From NCBI RefSeq assembly GCF_012222305.1, contig NZ_CP035730.1:2073501-2137500 (forward strand): a stretch of 64,000 nt of DNA. Direction: 5' to 3'. The first letter of the stretch is position 1. Each line of letters starts with the position of its first letter. The position numbers and the translations under genes are program-made. This document shows positions 19,653 through 26,161 of this stretch, in pieces. This DNA comes from Sulfolobus sp. S-194. Lineage in GTDB: Archaea > Thermoproteota > Thermoprotei_A > Sulfolobales > Sulfolobaceae. A model generated the notes under the pieces. The model was not told the DNA's origin. It worked only from the letters and a program-made list of their open reading frames with translations, and made no database searches.

Positions 19653-19949
19653 TTATGTGTTTATTTGTTGGAATACTTTGTGTGTTGGTCTTCCCTCAAT
19701 AATCTTCTTACCGTATTCCACAGTCTCCCTATAAGCAGTACTATTAATAAAATTCTTATAAGACTCCAAATCCTCCCACTCACTATAAATCAAATACTCA
19801 GAAGGATCATCAACACTCCTATAAAGCCTAGCACCCCTAAAACCCTTAAAACCAGACAAAAAAGAAACAACATCACTAAACTTCCTCTCAAACTCACCCT
19901 CAAAACCCCTCTTAACCCTATAATAAAAACCAACACTAATCAAAAACAA
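19653..19949 (-). CDS. ABM-domain protein downstream of soxN (OdsN-like position)
   Basis: A 98-residue protein of the antibiotic-biosynthesis-monooxygenase (ABM, dimeric alpha-beta barrel) type: YRVKRGFEGEFERKFSDVV, then GFRGARLYRSVDDPSEYLIY and EWEDLESYKNF. It lies 44 bases after soxN, where Sulfolobales carry the small odsN gene of the cbsAB-soxLN-odsN cluster; I infer, but cannot prove, identity. Its codon use is very odd: nearly all of the first 75 codons end in G or T, and the last 20 then switch to the A- and C-ending codons that were absent before. Confidence 0.7.
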   Translation of the reverse strand: MFLISVGFYYRVKRGFEGEFERKFSDVVSFLSGFKGFRGARLYRSVDDPSEYLIYSEWEDLESYKNFINSTAYRETVEYGKKIIEGRPTHKVFQQINT

Positions 19950-19993: not shown

Positions 19994-21478
19994 TTATTTC
20001 CTGTATACTACGTAATGATACAACGATATAGCCTCACCTAGCATTATAAATATCAGCCCTAAATCGATGCCAAATAGGTTAGATGCTGATCCAGTTGAAG
20101 GTATTGTCCATATTTGTGCTGCTAATATTACTGCCATAATGAAGAGTATTGATATCAAAATCTCAGCAAATTTCTTTTTAGTTTCAGAAGCAACTTCTAC
20201 TTTTCCTACAGCTTTAATAGGCAAATTAGGTAAGTTTTGCGTCATCATTTTAGTAATGCTTGTGGATTGGGTTAAGGATGGTGAAGTATTTGCTTCTGTT
20301 TTTGGTGATGGCAAGAAATACATTCCTATAGCAACTATTACTGCTGGCGGTAAGAATGCCATAATTTGTTGGCTAAATGGTATTGGTACGCCAGGAGTTA
20401 GATCACCCCAAATAGTATTTTGAATTAGATAGGTAATCATTAATATTCCTATGCCAGTAAATACTTTTCTTTTTAGAGGATGCAATTCTGGGCTTCTGTC
20501 TAGGAATGGCACAACTATTAGGTAAACTAGCGGTATTATTGAGCTAAAGAATAGGAATAATAGTACGTTGTTAGTGAAATCTGCCATCTTATATAGGAAT
20601 AGGAAGAACCATGGTGGATAAGTTGTTATATGTGCAGCGGCTGGAGAATTTGGTGGAGGAGCAGGCTTTGGATTTAAGAATGGGTTTAATTGCTGTGGTA
20701 ATCCACTTAAATATGATAATGCATTTGGAATGACTAATATAAAGCCCCAAGTTAAGAATACTAACGACATCATATAAACAAAATTCCTTGGCCACCATGG
20801 GTTAAACTTCATCCACTCCTCCTTTGTATATACTGCAGGGGCTTTTGGTTTTTCCTTTCTTGACGGCATCATTCCGTAATGCTCAGCTAGGAAGAAGTGA
20901 AATACAAATAGTACTCCAATAAGTGCAGCAAAAATTATATGTAATGCTAATACTCTACCGTACTGACCGGCATCATAATTTCCAAATAATACCGGTAATA
21001 ATCCCGATAATCCAGGAACTGAAGAAACTATTCCAGCACCTACATCTACAGCACTAGTGGCCAATGCATCACCGATTAAACTATATCCAAGGAAAGACGT
21101 ACCTAATGTTAGAACTAACATAATAACTCCGATTATCCATAATAACTCTCTAGGTCTTTTGTACGCTCCAGCAAAGTAATTTCTAAACATATGAACATAA
21201 GCTAAAATTATCATTGCATAAGCTCCATATAAGTGGCTATAGAGGGCTACAGATCCGTAGGGAACTTTATCTATGATGAATAGTGTGGACTCGTATCCTT
21301 GGTCTGGATTATAATAGAGAAGTAATATTAAACCAGATATTACAGTATAGATAAATGCTGAAGCTACTAGTGCTCCTAGCCAGAAATTGACCTTATACAT
21401 ATAGTCTGGTGTTCTGAAAAATGGTAAGTCATCTAGTCCTAGCCTTTCCTTAAACCAATTTGAGACCCTATCACTCAT
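19994..21478 (-). CDS. soxN: Cytochrome b of the SoxLN-CbsAB respiratory complex
   Basis: About 494 residues with roughly ten TM helices. Two helices carry the haem-ligating His pairs, each 14 residues apart: HLYGAYAMIILAYVH and HIIFAALIGVLFVFH. It should pass electrons from quinol to haems and work with the Rieske protein SoxL2 encoded just upstream, as a bc1-like complex. The frame is open to 21553, but MSDRVSNWFKERLG at 21478 is the natural N-terminus, and TTTTTTAATATC lies 24 bases before it as a leaderless TATA box. A motif shared with cbsA and soxL2 lies 37 bases upstream. Confidence 0.93.
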   Translation of the reverse strand: MSDRVSNWFKERLGLDDLPFFRTPDYMYKVNFWLGALVASAFIYTVISGLILLLYYNPDQGYESTLFIIDKVPYGSVALYSHLYGAYAMIILAYVHMFRNYFAGAYKRPRELLWIIGVIMLVLTLGTSFLGYSLIGDALATSAVDVGAGIVSSVPGLSGLLPVLFGNYDAGQYGRVLALHIIFAALIGVLFVFHFFLAEHYGMMPSRKEKPKAPAVYTKEEWMKFNPWWPRNFVYMMSLVFLTWGFILVIPNALSYLSGLPQQLNPFLNPKPAPPPNSPAAAHITTYPPWFFLFLYKMADFTNNVLLFLFFSSIIPLVYLIVVPFLDRSPELHPLKRKVFTGIGILMITYLIQNTIWGDLTPGVPIPFSQQIMAFLPPAVIVAIGMYFLPSPKTEANTSPSLTQSTSITKMMTQNLPNLPIKAVGKVEVASETKKKFAEILISILFIMAVILAAQIWTIPSTGSASNLFGIDLGLIFIMLGEAISLYHYVVYRK

Positions 21479-21514
21479 ATGATTAAATTGGAAAGATATT
21501 AAAAAAGGATTAAG

Positions 21515-21525
21515 CGTTGGACTGA
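21515..21525 (-). promoter_or_regulatory. AGTCCAACG motif upstream of soxN
   Basis: On the minus strand the bases read TCAGTCCAACG, just before the soxN TATA box. The same core, AGTCCAACG, occurs before soxL2 and cbsA and was not noticed elsewhere in the window. The distance from motif to start codon is 37 bases here. Confidence 0.55.
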
Positions 21526-21595
21526 TTTTTAAGAAATGAGGAAGATACTTCACTATTTATCAAAAATTAAATAAGAAAATAATAAAAAGAAAAAA

Positions 21596-22576
21596 TTAAC
21601 TACCGCTAAAAGGATTTTGTGTATTTTGAACAGTTGTCTTGTTACCAACTGGAGAACCAAAACTATTATCTAAATCAGCTTTTGGATTAGATGACGGTAC
21701 GCCGTTAGCTCCTTCTGGATAAATTGCAACTCCAACAGATCCTACTGCATAAAGATAGTCTGTACTAGAATCCCACTCTAATACTACTGTAGGTAATGGT
21801 CTTTGCGTAGGGCCAGTAAGAACAGCGGCACCGTGGTACGGATCATATGTAGAACCGTGACAATCACAATGAATTAGTGCTGGTACTTTAGCTTGTTTAG
21901 CAGCTAATAATGCTTGAGCAGTTAATTGATCTGGTTCTGGTGCAGCTAATTGTGAAGGACTAACATATTGTGGTGGATAAAAGTGTATATATGGTGGGGT
22001 ACAGCCAAGATGTTGGCATATTGCACTATAAGCCACAATTGATTTATTCGGACCTACTCCTCCAGGAAAATCATAAGTATCTCCAGTCTGTGGAACAAAA
22101 ACCTTTGTTGGAGGTACTTCTACTGGTTTACCAGACGAATCTCCAAGATTCAATAGGAAGTTAGGTTCTCCAGTCATAGGATATTCAAAGAGAACAATAT
22201 AAGGACTGTTTACTGGTATTTCAGAAGCTTTAATTGGATTTCCAGATGAATCTACAAGGAGAGACTTAGGAAATCCGGAAATAGCCGCTACTTGAGGGGG
22301 AACTATCACTTCTACTCCCGGGATGATTGCAGCTATTGTTGCAGCAGCTATTCCAAAGATTAAACCTTTAAGGAATTTTCTTCTTTTTTCATCAACACTA
22401 CCTACGTTCTTATTTACGTAGTTAAATAAATAATCTTCTCCTTTTGAAACGAATTCTTTACCATCGAATCTAGTCTTAGGATCTCTCATTTTAGCTAATA
22501 ACCTCTTTATAAAGACAAGATCTGAATAGTTAAGTACAGTCTTTTCGTCTTTATCTCCTAATCTTATCTTTATCAT
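21596..22576 (-). CDS. soxL2: Rieske iron-sulfur protein SoxL2
   Basis: A 326-residue Rieske protein. The N-terminus is cytoplasmic and charged, followed by a Tat-like RRKFLKGLIFGIAAATIAA signal/anchor near residues 65-85. The [2Fe-2S] ligands are CQHLGC and CDCHGS, with the long insertion between them characteristic of SoxL. The C-terminal 50 residues are a Ser/Asn-rich extension. It would accept electrons from quinol with cytochrome b SoxN and pass them to the CbsA haem. The gene has its own TATA (TTATATGATATA) and the shared AGTCCAACG motif 47 bases upstream. Confidence 0.95.
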   Translation of the reverse strand: MIKIRLGDKDEKTVLNYSDLVFIKRLLAKMRDPKTRFDGKEFVSKGEDYLFNYVNKNVGSVDEKRRKFLKGLIFGIAAATIAAIIPGVEVIVPPQVAAISGFPKSLLVDSSGNPIKASEIPVNSPYIVLFEYPMTGEPNFLLNLGDSSGKPVEVPPTKVFVPQTGDTYDFPGGVGPNKSIVAYSAICQHLGCTPPYIHFYPPQYVSPSQLAAPEPDQLTAQALLAAKQAKVPALIHCDCHGSTYDPYHGAAVLTGPTQRPLPTVVLEWDSSTDYLYAVGSVGVAIYPEGANGVPSSNPKADLDNSFGSPVGNKTTVQNTQNPFSGS

Positions 22577-22622
22577 TTTTTATCACAATAAAAAGTGAGC
22601 ATTATATCATATAACTTTTTGC

Positions 22623-22632
22623 CGTTGGACTA
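22623..22632 (-). promoter_or_regulatory. AGTCCAACG motif upstream of soxL2
   Basis: Minus-strand TAGTCCAACG, immediately upstream of the TATA region of soxL2. It is exactly 47 bases from the start codon, the same distance as the copy before cbsA. Confidence 0.55.
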
Positions 22633-22663
22633 AAGATATTAAATTAAAAAAGAGTTTAATTTA

Positions 22664-23608
22664 TTATTGATTTTTTACTTTCAATTTTTGTGATAAATAT
22701 TTAGTAATATTTTCTTCTTTCATCTCATTATAACACATGAGAACATAACCAATAGTAGGAACTAACATGTACATTAACAAAAGATATCCATATATCCCAA
22801 AAAACACATTGGATATTAGCATAAAATAACCAATTCCTGCTGCACCATTACCTTTAATAATGATAGAAATGATGGAAAATGTAATTATTGCTAAGAAGTA
22901 AACTAAATAGAGTAAGTGAGAAGGATTATAGATAGTTATACCGAGAGCTGACGGAAGTATCATTTCCATTAGGATTTGTATATACCTATTTGTTATAATC
23001 TCGTGAGCAAACATAATAAACGGATACATGCTCATTAAGCCCACAATATAAGCAATAATACTCCTTTTACTAGTTATCTTTCTCCAAAGTATAGTATAGA
23101 CTAAAAATGTAACTGCAGAAAAAATGAGGAAATCTAAATAACTTACGTAAAGGGTAGTATGATAGAAAGTAATGAAAAATGATGCTATTAAACCCAGTCC
23201 TACTAGTATTCCAGAGGGGATAAGAAGTACTACTTTTATGTCACTTTTAATAGTAGCTTCGATCAATGCTGTAATAGCAATTATTATTATAAATATTTCA
23301 ATACCATAATAATATGTATAATTAACGTTTAAATACGCTAAAATAGGGGATATTATAAGTAATATTGATAAAGGTAGAAGAGCTTTCACTTTGTTAGATA
23401 AAAGAAACGAGACTAGAATGAGGGAAATGAAAAAGATGTAAAAAGAAACTGCACCTATTCTGAGAAGAAATACTTCAGCAGGGATATGAATAGGTAAGGC
23501 CGAAGGAAAAACAAAAGCTTCAGAAAACATGAATTGAAGAAATCCAGAAATGCCTAAAATTAAGAAAAAATATTTTATATCTTTCTCAAGAAAGGATAGA
23601 ATTTTCAT
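22664..23608 (-). CDS. cbsB: Cytochrome b558/566 subunit B (hydrophobic)
   Basis: A 314-residue, very hydrophobic protein with about ten TM helices and almost no soluble domain. It starts inside the end of cbsA (ATGA overlap of 4 bases), the known arrangement of the Sulfolobales cbsAB operon. CbsB is the membrane partner of the haem protein CbsA. No haem ligands are known with certainty, and none can be assigned here. The end is Lys-rich ([11 protein letters not shown]). Confidence 0.88.
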
Positions 23609-25005
23609 CTTCTGTACACCACATATAATATTACTAAGGCTAAAATAGCTATAACTGCACCGACCACAGTCACATCTACTGTTGCTGAAGGAATTGCAGC
23701 TGATGTAGAAGTAGTTGACGAGACTGAAGTAGTAGTTGTTGTAGTTGTTGTTGGTGGAGTGGTTACTAACTGTAACGTTAAGAATGAGGATGTTATAGAC
23801 TTATCAAACAAAGTCTCTCCTAATTTACCTTGCCATACTGCGAAAGCGACATAATAAGTCTTTCCAACTGTTATGTTAGGCATCCAATTAGCATAATTTG
23901 GTGGTACAGCTAATGGTCTAGCAAACTCTACAGTCCAATACCCATTACTCCATGTAGCTCCAGTCCATATGAAGAATAGTGAACCGTTTAACCCTTTTGA
24001 TGCTACTGGTGTATACCATATTCCAGAACAATCAACTTCATACATATTAGTATTATTTGAGTAAAGTGGTACAGCAAACCCATGATTTCCTGGATCAACG
24101 TATGGTAAACCAGTTAAAGACTCATTCTGCCATAGATTCGCTTTAAATGCTGGATCGTAAGTGGAATTGTTCCATGTAGCTCCAGATACCCACATCCAAA
24201 TATTAGCGGCACCTCCAGATTGAGCTAAAGAACCTCCAGCATCTTTAAAAGTAACACCATCGAATGTTTGTCCTGGATATTTACCACCTATATTCATACC
24301 GTCCTTACTAGGTGGTATTACACTACCCATATACCACATCATAGCAACTCTATCTGGATAATACCATGTTGAATTAGTATAATAACCATAAAACATACCA
24401 TCACTGTATAATAGGTCCTCCATTGGTCTCAGAGAGTGCCATAAGATAATCGAACCGTTAGATAAGACAGTTATTTGTGTTCCATTAGGAGTAGGTAAAA
24501 GTATACCAGAATAGTTAAGAACTAACCTACCTTGATATGTCTTTCCATTTACAATTGCTATGTAATTTGTATAATTCTTTTCTACAGTATATGTGGTTCC
24601 TGGTGTAAGCATTATTTGTCTAAATAATCCTGGGCCAGAAGCTGGAGGATAAAGTGCACCTGCAGCCGCTGACCAAGCGCCAAATGCTGGGTTAGGAGCG
24701 TACCATTTTACTAATACAAATATCCATGATCCATTCCAAGCAGCCTTAACTAACACATAATGTGTTAAACCAGAAGTTGGTGCTTGCGGAATATTTGCTG
24801 TTAGAGAAATGTTAATCCATGGAATTTTTGACCAGTACGATGCTGAGCCAGGATTAGATAAATCCGCTGTACCAACAATTTTGTATACTGGTATATCTGG
24901 AGATGTTTGTGCCATAGGAGTGTTGGTTACTGCTAATAATACTCCTAGTAGAAGAACTGAGAGAGTAATACTTATGGTTAATTTGGTAGAAGGTTTTACA
25001 CTCAT
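23605..25005 (-). CDS. cbsA: Cytochrome b558/566 subunit A (secreted haem glycoprotein)
   Basis: A 466-residue protein with an N-terminal signal helix ([18 protein letters not shown]), a large ectodomain of the ethylbenzene-dehydrogenase-related haem-binding type, a Thr/Ser-rich linker near residues 415-435 and a C-terminal TM helix. Many N-x-S/T sites fit the known heavy glycosylation. It sits on the outer face and takes electrons from the SoxL2-SoxN complex. It is first of the four-gene cluster and co-transcribed with cbsB. The promoter region carries the shared AGTCCAACG motif at 47 bases. Confidence 0.94.
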
Positions 25006-25051
25006 TTTATCACATTTAATAAGTTAAGTGGTTCAACTCAAAAATGTTAAT

Positions 25052-25062
25052 CGTTGGACTGA
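25052..25062 (-). promoter_or_regulatory. AGTCCAACG motif upstream of cbsA
   Basis: Minus-strand TCAGTCCAACG, identical over 11 bases to the copy before soxN and 47 bases from the cbsA start. The intergenic stretch 25006-25197 also holds the promoter of the divergent gene at 25198. Confidence 0.55.
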
Positions 25063-25197
25063 TTATCTAATTCTACTTTTGTTCTCAAAATGATTTAATT
25101 ATTTAACTTTATCTCATAAATGGTTAACATTGTTAATCATTAATACGACATTTTTTAAAATTTAGGAATATAAACCCTTAAATAGATATCTTTACGT

Positions 25198-25779
25198 ATG
25201 TGTTTATTAAGAGTTATTAATGTTACAAGACCCATAATATCAAATGACATAATTTTGCTTAAAGACGAAATATTCTCAAGATTAAGAGATGAGGTTTATG
25301 TAAGAGTTTTAAGTAGTGATAAAAGAGATGGTGAAATTAGTAAAAGTTATTTTTATTTTATAGTTGATAAGCTTAGAAAAATGGGACTTTTACTAGATAA
25401 TGCCATATCGTTTAAACTGGTAATTCCTTATACTCTTAATGATAAAAGAGAGATTGTTCTAAAAGATGGAATAATATATATAACCAACAAAAAACAATTA
25501 ATTTATTTTGATATATATGATACAACATATGTCTGCGGAAATTGCTCAGTTATTTTATCTTGTGTTCATGGATTAAAGCAAATAGCTTATGAATTGGGAA
25601 TTAAAATTAGAGATGATAACCCAGATTTAGCATGGTATAAAATATTAAAAGACATTCAGAGATCATTATTAGAAGCTTCTATGTCATTGAAGTTAAAGTT
25701 AGGAGATATACCTTTTGGGAATAGAATATGTTGTGAAGAAGAGGAGGTGAAAGAGAACGAATCCCAAATTAATTTATAA
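25198..25779 (+). CDS. Hypothetical protein with SWIM-like Cys/His cluster
   Basis: A 193-residue soluble protein. Near residue 113 it has CGNCSVILSCVHG, which resembles a zinc-binding CxxC-x6-CxH pattern similar to SWIM domains. The first 100 residues are mixed alpha/beta. The C-terminus is acidic and contains a CC pair. It is divergent from cbsA and begins a three-gene run with two membrane proteins. Because it faces the respiratory cluster it could act as a regulator or maturation factor, but this is only positional. Confidence 0.65.
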   Translation: MCLLRVINVTRPIISNDIILLKDEIFSRLRDEVYVRVLSSDKRDGEISKSYFYFIVDKLRKMGLLLDNAISFKLVIPYTLNDKREIVLKDGIIYITNKKQLIYFDIYDTTYVCGNCSVILSCVHGLKQIAYELGIKIRDDNPDLAWYKILKDIQRSLLEASMSLKLKLGDIPFGNRICCEEEEVKENESQINL

Positions 25780-25855: not shown

Positions 25856-26161
25856 ATGATAAAGAATTATTATATGTCGGAAGAAGTACTGATCTTTCAT
25901 ATTATCTTTGCTTTAGCCTCGGGAGGGCTGGGATATTATCTTTATATTTTGGCTTCAAGAACTGGACTTTTATTCCCTAAATTTATAGCAACAAGTAACA
26001 TTGTTTCAATAGCTATCGCTGGATTTTCGGGCTTAGGCTATTTACTTACACAAAACGATGAATTTACTAGAGTAATGCTTTATGGATTTGAAATATCACT
26101 AGCATTATCATCAATGCTAGTAGGGTATTTGTATTGTTTCATGAGAGTTTGTAGTAGGTAA
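25856..26161 (+). CDS. Small membrane protein; true N-terminus may lie upstream
   Basis: From the ATG at 25856 a 101-residue protein with three TM helices. The same frame is open back to a TGA at 25748 and would encode another hydrophobic helix (SIISIIVLFATFTLGLL), but it contains no ATG, GTG or TTG. A strong GAGGAGGTGA ribosome site at 25741-25750 sits at the head of this extension. So either an unusual start codon is used, or a frameshift has separated start and helix. It overlaps or follows the gene at 25198 and precedes the gene at 26167 by 5 bases, forming an operon. Function unknown. Confidence 0.6.
   Translation: MIKNYYMSEEVLIFHIIFALASGGLGYYLYILASRTGLLFPKFIATSNIVSIAIAGFSGLGYLLTQNDEFTRVMLYGFEISLALSSMLVGYLYCFMRVCSR

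Follow-up and report, generated by a model that had tools for sequence, protein, structure and literature searches.

How the separate transcripts of an archaeal respiratory complex are kept in step is the question raised by the cbsAB-soxL2-soxN(-odsN) cluster of Sulfolobus sp. S-194, which encodes an archaeal complex analogous to bc1 (Pfam EB_dh, Rieske and cytochrome b) and lies in a 64,000-nt stretch of contig NZ_CP035730.1 (positions 2,073,501 to 2,137,500; hereafter the window). A preliminary description of the window had noted the 9-bp motif AGTCCAACG before cbsA, soxL2 and soxN, and had proposed that one factor coordinates the three transcripts. As regards the cis-acting element, this proposal is supported by the conservation, orientation and spacing of the motif and by its absence before cbsB; as regards a binding protein and its identity, we infer that AGTCCAACG probably functions as a one-sided operator of cbsAB-soxL2-soxN(-odsN), bound by TFA (encoded beside cbsA) and/or its paralogue TFB, with an activating effect and possibly a redox-sensing iron-sulfur (Fe-S) centre. 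What is new is a small, deeply conserved respiratory regulon together with a specific candidate regulator from an undescribed, cysteine-rich and predicted winged-helix family. No earlier account of the element or regulon, and no named regulator of the SoxNL-CbsAB-OdsN block, was found in the open-access literature; AGTCCAACG as a text string gave no Sulfolobales title among the matches listed.

A conserved element upstream of the TATA region

Three exact copies of AGTCCAACG are present in the window, all on the minus strand, compared with 0.07 (standard deviation 0.26) in 100 dinucleotide shuffles. The element lies 46 nt upstream of the ATG in the cbsA promoter (25052..25060), where it is followed by a putative TATA box in the form of a T-run (25040..25044; motif offset 16–20). 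It lies 46 nt upstream of the soxL2 ATG (22623..22631), followed by the TATA-like GTTATAT (22609..22615; offset 16–22), and 36 nt upstream of the soxN ATG (21515..21523), followed by the TATA-like CTTTTTT (21501..21507; offset 16–22); the TATA role of these minus-strand stretches is predicted from the sequence. In all three promoters, the TATA-like stretch lies 16 to 22 nt past the first base of AGTCCAACG, in agreement with the earlier placement of the motif just upstream of the TATA region; the spacings of 47, 47 and 37 given at that time include the first base of the start codon and correspond to the gaps reported here. These start distances would fit a nearly leaderless soxN transcript and, for cbsA and soxL2, short leaders with a GTGA-like ribosome site.

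Conservation was assessed in 31 genomes of the family Sulfolobaceae from 11 genera, 28 of which have cbsA (some with two copies); genes were mapped by tblastn, and 98 nt upstream of each start were searched. Starts in the other genomes were extrapolated from alignments, so that distances are approximate (e.g., 15 and 13 nt for soxL2 of genomes G021 and G022). At one mismatch or fewer, AGTCCAACG was found before cbsA in 25 of 31 rows, before soxL2 in 22 of 25, and before soxN in 19 of 25 (66/81 promoters overall), and before odsN in 2 of 21; shuffled promoters gave means of 0.10 to 0.25 matches per gene set. Before the internal gene cbsB, it was found in none of 30 rows, the best match having at least three mismatches in every row, as expected from the earlier statement that cbsB has no motif of its own. 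When the search was extended to 150 nt, three cbsB rows showed matches with one (L053) or two (L052, L065) mismatches, 131–140 nt upstream, all of which sit in the repetitive 3′ end of cbsA. The soxL2 and soxN genes of G001, G013 and G026 lay outside the examined stretches and were left out of the counts; the exact motif is also present at soxL2 of G001 and at both soxL2 and soxN of G013. Two-mismatch sites occur at soxN of G006, at cbsA of G008, at both cbsA rows of G009, and at soxL2 of G023, and the site is missing at cbsA of G022 and at soxN of G020, G021, and G022. Most orthologous promoters therefore carry the motif, and the outcome that the preliminary description had named as contrary to its proposal, orthologues without it, did not occur. 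We consider it well supported that AGTCCAACG is a conserved promoter-proximal element, with the same orientation and nearly the same spacing in most of the 11 genera.

The family promoters share a conserved block, YATN-AGTCCAACG-N4-A-N3-TTWW; of the 66 sites with one mismatch or fewer, 58 have TTWW at offset 17, the motif itself occupying offsets 0–8. This near-fixed offset places AGTCCAACG directly upstream of the transcription factor B recognition element (BRE) and TATA box, in constant helical phase, in three otherwise unlike promoters, and would be an activator-like position. An RNA element was ruled out, since a motif placed before the TATA-like box should not form part of the transcript. 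Conservation for coding reasons was likewise rejected: in many soxN rows the motif starts with the final base of the soxL2 stop codon, which makes the TCATN flank partly coding, but GTCCAACG is not, and the cbsA sites are not so placed.

The genes served by these promoters are all on the minus strand of the window. They comprise cbsA (23605..25005), for cytochrome b558/566 subunit A with an EB_dh domain (PF09459, E = 2.6e-27; orthologues in 28/31 genomes); cbsB (22664..23608), for a hydrophobic protein without a Pfam match, overlapping cbsA and named by position; soxL2 (21596..22576), for a Rieske [2Fe-2S] protein (PF00355, E = 2.9e-5, above its cut-off); and soxN (19994..21478), for cytochrome b (PF13631, E = 3.5e-46), with its start at 21478 set by homology. 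Downstream of soxN, an odsN-like gene (19653..19949) encodes a small ABM-domain protein (PF03992), the name being taken from the cluster order in PMC11486757. In two genomes of genus g11 (L070, L072), AGTCCTACG is found 40–46 nt before odsN and is possibly an extra site. Locus L063 of G009 has two adjoining cbsA copies, the second match containing one in-frame TAG.

Occurrence of the element across the genomes

In the whole 2.79-Mb genome there are 11 exact copies of AGTCCAACG: three in the cluster promoters, five in copies of a repeated, unidentified open reading frame (ORF), two in other long ORFs, and a single copy that precedes, by about 40 nt, a paralogue of the gene next to cbsA. Given the copies inside ORFs, the bare 9-mer is not unique and is rare in promoter context only. 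With one mismatch allowed, it gives 166 matches vs. 168 for the reversed pattern, which is chance level, and the argument is therefore carried by context and conservation only; some genomes of higher GC content have no more matches than the control even when these are exact (e.g., 18 vs. 24 in G007).

The extended pattern WTNAGTCYAACGNNNHA gave 82 matches in the 31 genomes, most of them in the cluster, vs. 10 for the reversed control. Of its four matches in the genome of the window, three are at the cluster promoters and the fourth is at the TFB promoter (C1:2336375). All four recur in the congeners G028, G029, and G030, with one more match inside an ORF in G029. A profile built from 55 cluster sites and scanned over all 31 genomes (cut-off E ≤ 0.0186, the E-values being rough) gave 72 matches, with about 0.6 expected by chance. 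These include 61 cluster sites, which are mostly training data and one of which is a cbsA fragment at a contig edge. The 11 off-cluster matches are five promoters of the family to which TFA and TFB belong (in G000, G028, G029, G030, and G002), three promoters of U32-peptidase-like genes (in G002, G003, and G016), and three others; one protein family thus leads the matches outside the cluster. The four best matches in the genome of the window are soxN, cbsA, TFB, and soxL2, and the fifth is inside an ORF. The extended pattern is rare elsewhere, and occurrence before unrelated genes at a chance rate, the other contrary outcome foreseen, was not seen.

Several further candidate targets were considered. 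The U32-peptidase-like gene was rejected as a general member of the regulon: of the 24 promoters for which a start was located, just two, those of G002 and G003, have an exact site. The start was not located in two further cases; one of these, G016, has AGTCCAACA. We call this gene a lineage-specific target. Antisense sites upstream of TFB in seven genomes of genus g7 (Acidianus-like) have AGTACAACG within an opposite-strand ORF and were dismissed as a coding coincidence; a site of this type in G018 is one of the three other profile matches. A match near C1:1631932 of G000, and its counterparts in G029 and G030 were also dismissed, as they are inside an ORF. A looser pattern, AGWCYAAYR with the downstream A and TTWW, gave 81 matches in the 31 genomes vs. 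27 for the reversed control, and its extra matches look like background for the most part. In two genera, motif-like sites (L332:3921-3971 in G011; L335:3336-3356 in G003) lie by similar genes that were named by eye as SRPBCC/CoxG-like; the site in G003 is inverted and weaker, and the gene is a possible further target.

The TFA/TFB family as candidate regulator

TFA (25198..25779, plus strand) is a protein of 193 amino acids (aa), encoded divergently from cbsA, with a winged-helix-like N-terminal half, a cysteine at position 2, and a CX2CX5C motif. It belongs, together with the paralogue TFB (distinct from the general transcription factor of the same name), to a cysteine-rich protein family, here termed the TF family, which was found in 30 of the 31 genomes. 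The exception, G024, has no cbsA either; in G023, of the same genus as G024, the family has a single gene, which is downstream of odsN. In 20 of 28 genomes, representing nine of the 11 genera, a TF gene is located no more than 10 kb from cbsA, vs. 0.59 expected (7 of 69 TF matches were left out of this count), in arrangements that vary between divergent, tandem, and downstream. TFB (165 aa) has the exact site 39 nt before its Met-Cys start in all four genomes of the genus of the window. In the seven g7 genomes, the TFB promoter carries the variant AGACCAACA, AGACTAACG or AGATCAGCG, 37–41 nt before the start, which may represent a drifted operator. A further TF paralogue in G028 (L205:2492, plus strand) has AGTCCAATG 46 nt before its start.

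The TF family alignment comprises 61 members (6 of 67 rows, being fragments or shorter than 140 aa, were left out, and one more duplicate was left out of the tree). Cys2 is kept in 56 of the 61, the three cysteines of CX2CX5-6C in 59, 60, and 61, respectively, and S[KR]SY in all. A scan of the phylum for homologues gave matches in 34 of 300 genomes (14 in Sulfolobaceae, 4 in family f7, 14 in family f26, and 2 in others). Six of seven distant homologues scanned have winged-helix Pfam matches (at best HTH_5, E = 4.7e-11, and HTH_20, E = 5.5e-11), and hhalign aligned the Sulfolobaceae members to the distant homologues with a probability of 98.2 % (E = 3.1e-14; 145 columns), including the recognition helix and the cysteines. 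Because the distant homologues match winged helix-turn-helix families and the profile–profile alignment connects them to TFA, TFA is assigned as a winged-helix protein by homology. The cysteines suggest a metal or [4Fe-4S] centre, zinc being equally possible as the occupant; MutY loops were among the top matches, at a non-significant level (E = 0.8).

TFA genes not linked to cbsA have COX1- or NorB-like oxidases or a sulfocyanin-like protein as neighbours in some genomes; no such neighbour stood out in G016 and G020. The neighbours of TFA in Acidianus-like genomes include NorB/COX1-type oxidases or a sulfocyanin-like protein (L207:7624-9744, L206:8278-9882, L086:2378-3082), and on the basis of this position TFA may control further respiratory genes. 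In several genomes, TF genes adjoin a U32-peptidase-like gene, radical-SAM proteins, and a metallo-beta-lactamase-fold protein (L222:3928-8380, L223:10239-13394, L206:3426-5296), which is perhaps, as a guess, a cofactor or quinone pathway. Downstream of TFA in the window is a gene for a small hydrophobic protein (25856..26161, plus strand); as judged by eye, several further genomes have a comparable ORF after TFA. TF divergence and motif decay coincide in genera g4, g5, and g9, a pattern that was set aside because phylogeny confounds it, and no occurrence of the family in viral contigs was confirmed.

A second element, WGTTAA (often TGTTAAT; 25131-25137 in the window), is present in 22 of the 25 promoters of TFA-side genes, where shuffles gave a mean of 4.6 and a maximum of 11. 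Elsewhere it occurs in 10 of 36 other TF promoters (shuffle 6.0), 13 of 81 cluster promoters (10.4), and 11 of 24 U32 promoters (3.5). It was picked after looking and is a lead only; it is possibly the site of another regulator or a means of TFA autoregulation.

Proposed control of the cluster and comparison with known regulators

Under the proposed mechanism, TFA and/or TFB would bind AGTCCAACG as a one-sided site at the three promoters, and the bound protein would recruit the basal machinery, namely TATA-binding protein (TBP) and general factor TFB, to all three together. The paralogue TFB would itself be a target, giving feedback or feed-forward, and the cysteine centre may couple binding to the redox or oxygen state. 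More tentatively, an undescribed archaeal winged-helix family with an Fe-S centre might sense oxygen or redox state and switch the bc1-analogous complex on and off via a single 9-bp operator shared by the three promoters, TFB forming part of a feedback loop; if true, this would constitute an archaeal functional counterpart of bacterial Fe-S regulators of respiration.

A number of observations weigh against a role for the TF family. The site is missing from the TFA promoters themselves and from most of the remaining TF-family promoters, those examined from Metallosphaera among them. In 8 of 28 genomes (five of six g7 genomes, G005, G011, and G020), cbsA has no TF gene within 10 kb. The family is also present in G015 and G019, which lack cbsA, so that it must have other targets. 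No site is present at any of the three promoters in G004, and no normally oriented site in G005, where an exact inverted AGTCCAACG lies about 70 nt before cbsA (L069:2896-2904), as one inverted exception. In G024, a genome without a TF gene, a gene is nevertheless preceded by one weak site, AGTCTAACG (E = 0.46). Searched against Pfam, the 37 Sulfolobaceae members gave MCM_C as the best helix-turn-helix match (E = 0.016, in 2 of 37), which is not significant, the best match of any kind being DUF61 (E = 0.003, in one); no helix-turn-helix family was matched in NCBIfam. An AlphaFold2 model of TFA from three sequences only (predicted local distance difference test score 57, predicted template modelling score 0.57) was too poor to serve as a test of the fold; it gave no Foldseek match at E ≤ 0.001 and a best VIA-align Z of 2.6, to MHC chains, and was discarded. 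The gene behind AGTCTAACG in G024 (L339:2510-3186; 209 aa) is similar to the one that precedes TFB in Acidianus-like genomes.

Some of these observations would suit a genuine operator read by another widespread Sulfolobaceae regulator of the Lrp, Lrs14 or MarR type, the linkage of TF genes reflecting a shared respiratory neighbourhood only. This reading draws on the TFA promoters without the site and the eight genomes with unlinked TF genes, and also on a genome-association region of the Metallosphaera sedula nucleoid protein AbfR1 at msed_0504/0505, beside cbsA (PMC12529230). In the same source, AbfR1 is said not to act as a motif-specific regulator, and the off-cluster profile matches favour TF-family promoters over any other gene (5/11); we regard another reader as rather unlikely. 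The 9-mer might instead be a core-promoter variant, an extended BRE for an alternative general factor TFB or a TFE-like factor, as it is non-palindromic, stands beside BRE/TATA at fixed spacing, and has almost only one orientation. The restriction of the extended pattern to four sites in a 2.79-Mb genome, and the location of the 9-mer (offsets 0–8) upstream of the BRE position, with the TATA-like stretch at 16–22, make this very improbable. Chance, or shared ancestry without function, is compatible with the chance-level count of the one-mismatch 9-mer, but is scarcely credible against matches in 66 of 81 promoters (shuffle means of 0.12–0.16 per gene set), none of 30 for cbsB, and a motif kept between genera with diverged flanks.

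As a variant of the operator explanation, possibly with the same factor, the bound protein might act as a repressor that blocks loading of general factor TFB and TBP under some condition. A site on the upstream side of BRE/TATA would be more usual for an activator, and we consider repression unlikely, if less so than a core-promoter role. In its favour, the S. acidocaldarius cluster goes down as a block both on nutrient depletion (PMC6335949, in the text of which the word “motif” is absent) and on overfeeding (values of −1.9, −1.6, −2.1, −1.9, and −1.8 for saci_1858-1862 in one comparison of the RNA-seq study of nutrient excess; PMC11486757). The joint change of these five genes is also in line with the preferred explanation, in which one factor acts on the three promoters. 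Because SoxABCDL also shifts in both studies (PMC6335949; PMC11486757), co-change alone does not single out the cbsAB-soxL2-soxN cluster.

With binding of AGTCCAACG by TFA and/or TFB as the preferred explanation, the operator and the neighbouring candidate regulator make control of the respiratory-chain branches of Sulfolobales directly testable, and a confirmed regulator would extend the known archaeal regulators by a class that is rich in cysteine and possibly carries Fe-S. The ARA box is a promoter-proximal activator box of Sulfolobus that is read by XylR (for XylR, see PMC7264815). Like it, AGTCCAACG is a short element just upstream of BRE/TATA, shared by several promoters of one pathway; the two differ in sequence, and here the genes are respiratory, the regulon is very small, and the candidate protein is of another family. 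The ultraviolet (UV)-inducible hexanucleotide of the ups promoters of S. acidocaldarius has the sequence ANTTTC. It is likewise a short conserved motif of Sulfolobales promoters that defines a regulon (PMC5817253), unlike the present element in sequence and genes, which here amount to three to five promoters. A comparative-genomic precedent for an energy or carbon regulon of Sulfolobales with a proposed regulator is the HHC box/HhcR regulon of the 3-hydroxypropionate/4-hydroxybutyrate cycle (Leyn et al., 2015, via PMC12529230), which has another motif and other genes; a later description makes its proposed regulator, AbfR1/HhcR, a nucleoid-organizing protein (PMC12529230).

On the protein side, the winged-helix half of the TF family is like that of ArsR/TrmB-type regulators, by profile–profile homology, and is set apart from them by the C-terminal CX2CX5-6C, the N-terminal Met-Cys, and the lack of a convincing family-model match for the Sulfolobaceae members. 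The CX2CX5C spacing is that of the [4Fe-4S] loops of EndoIII/MutY and of the iron staple of AddB/Cas4; iron staples also use a distant N-terminal cysteine. Unlike for these loops, a cluster in the TF family is predicted from the cysteine pattern, with no significant sequence homology to them. In function, the family would do the same job of redox or oxygen control as the [4Fe-4S] respiration regulators ArnR (PMC12343034) and FNR, which are bacterial and to which no sequence relation was shown here.

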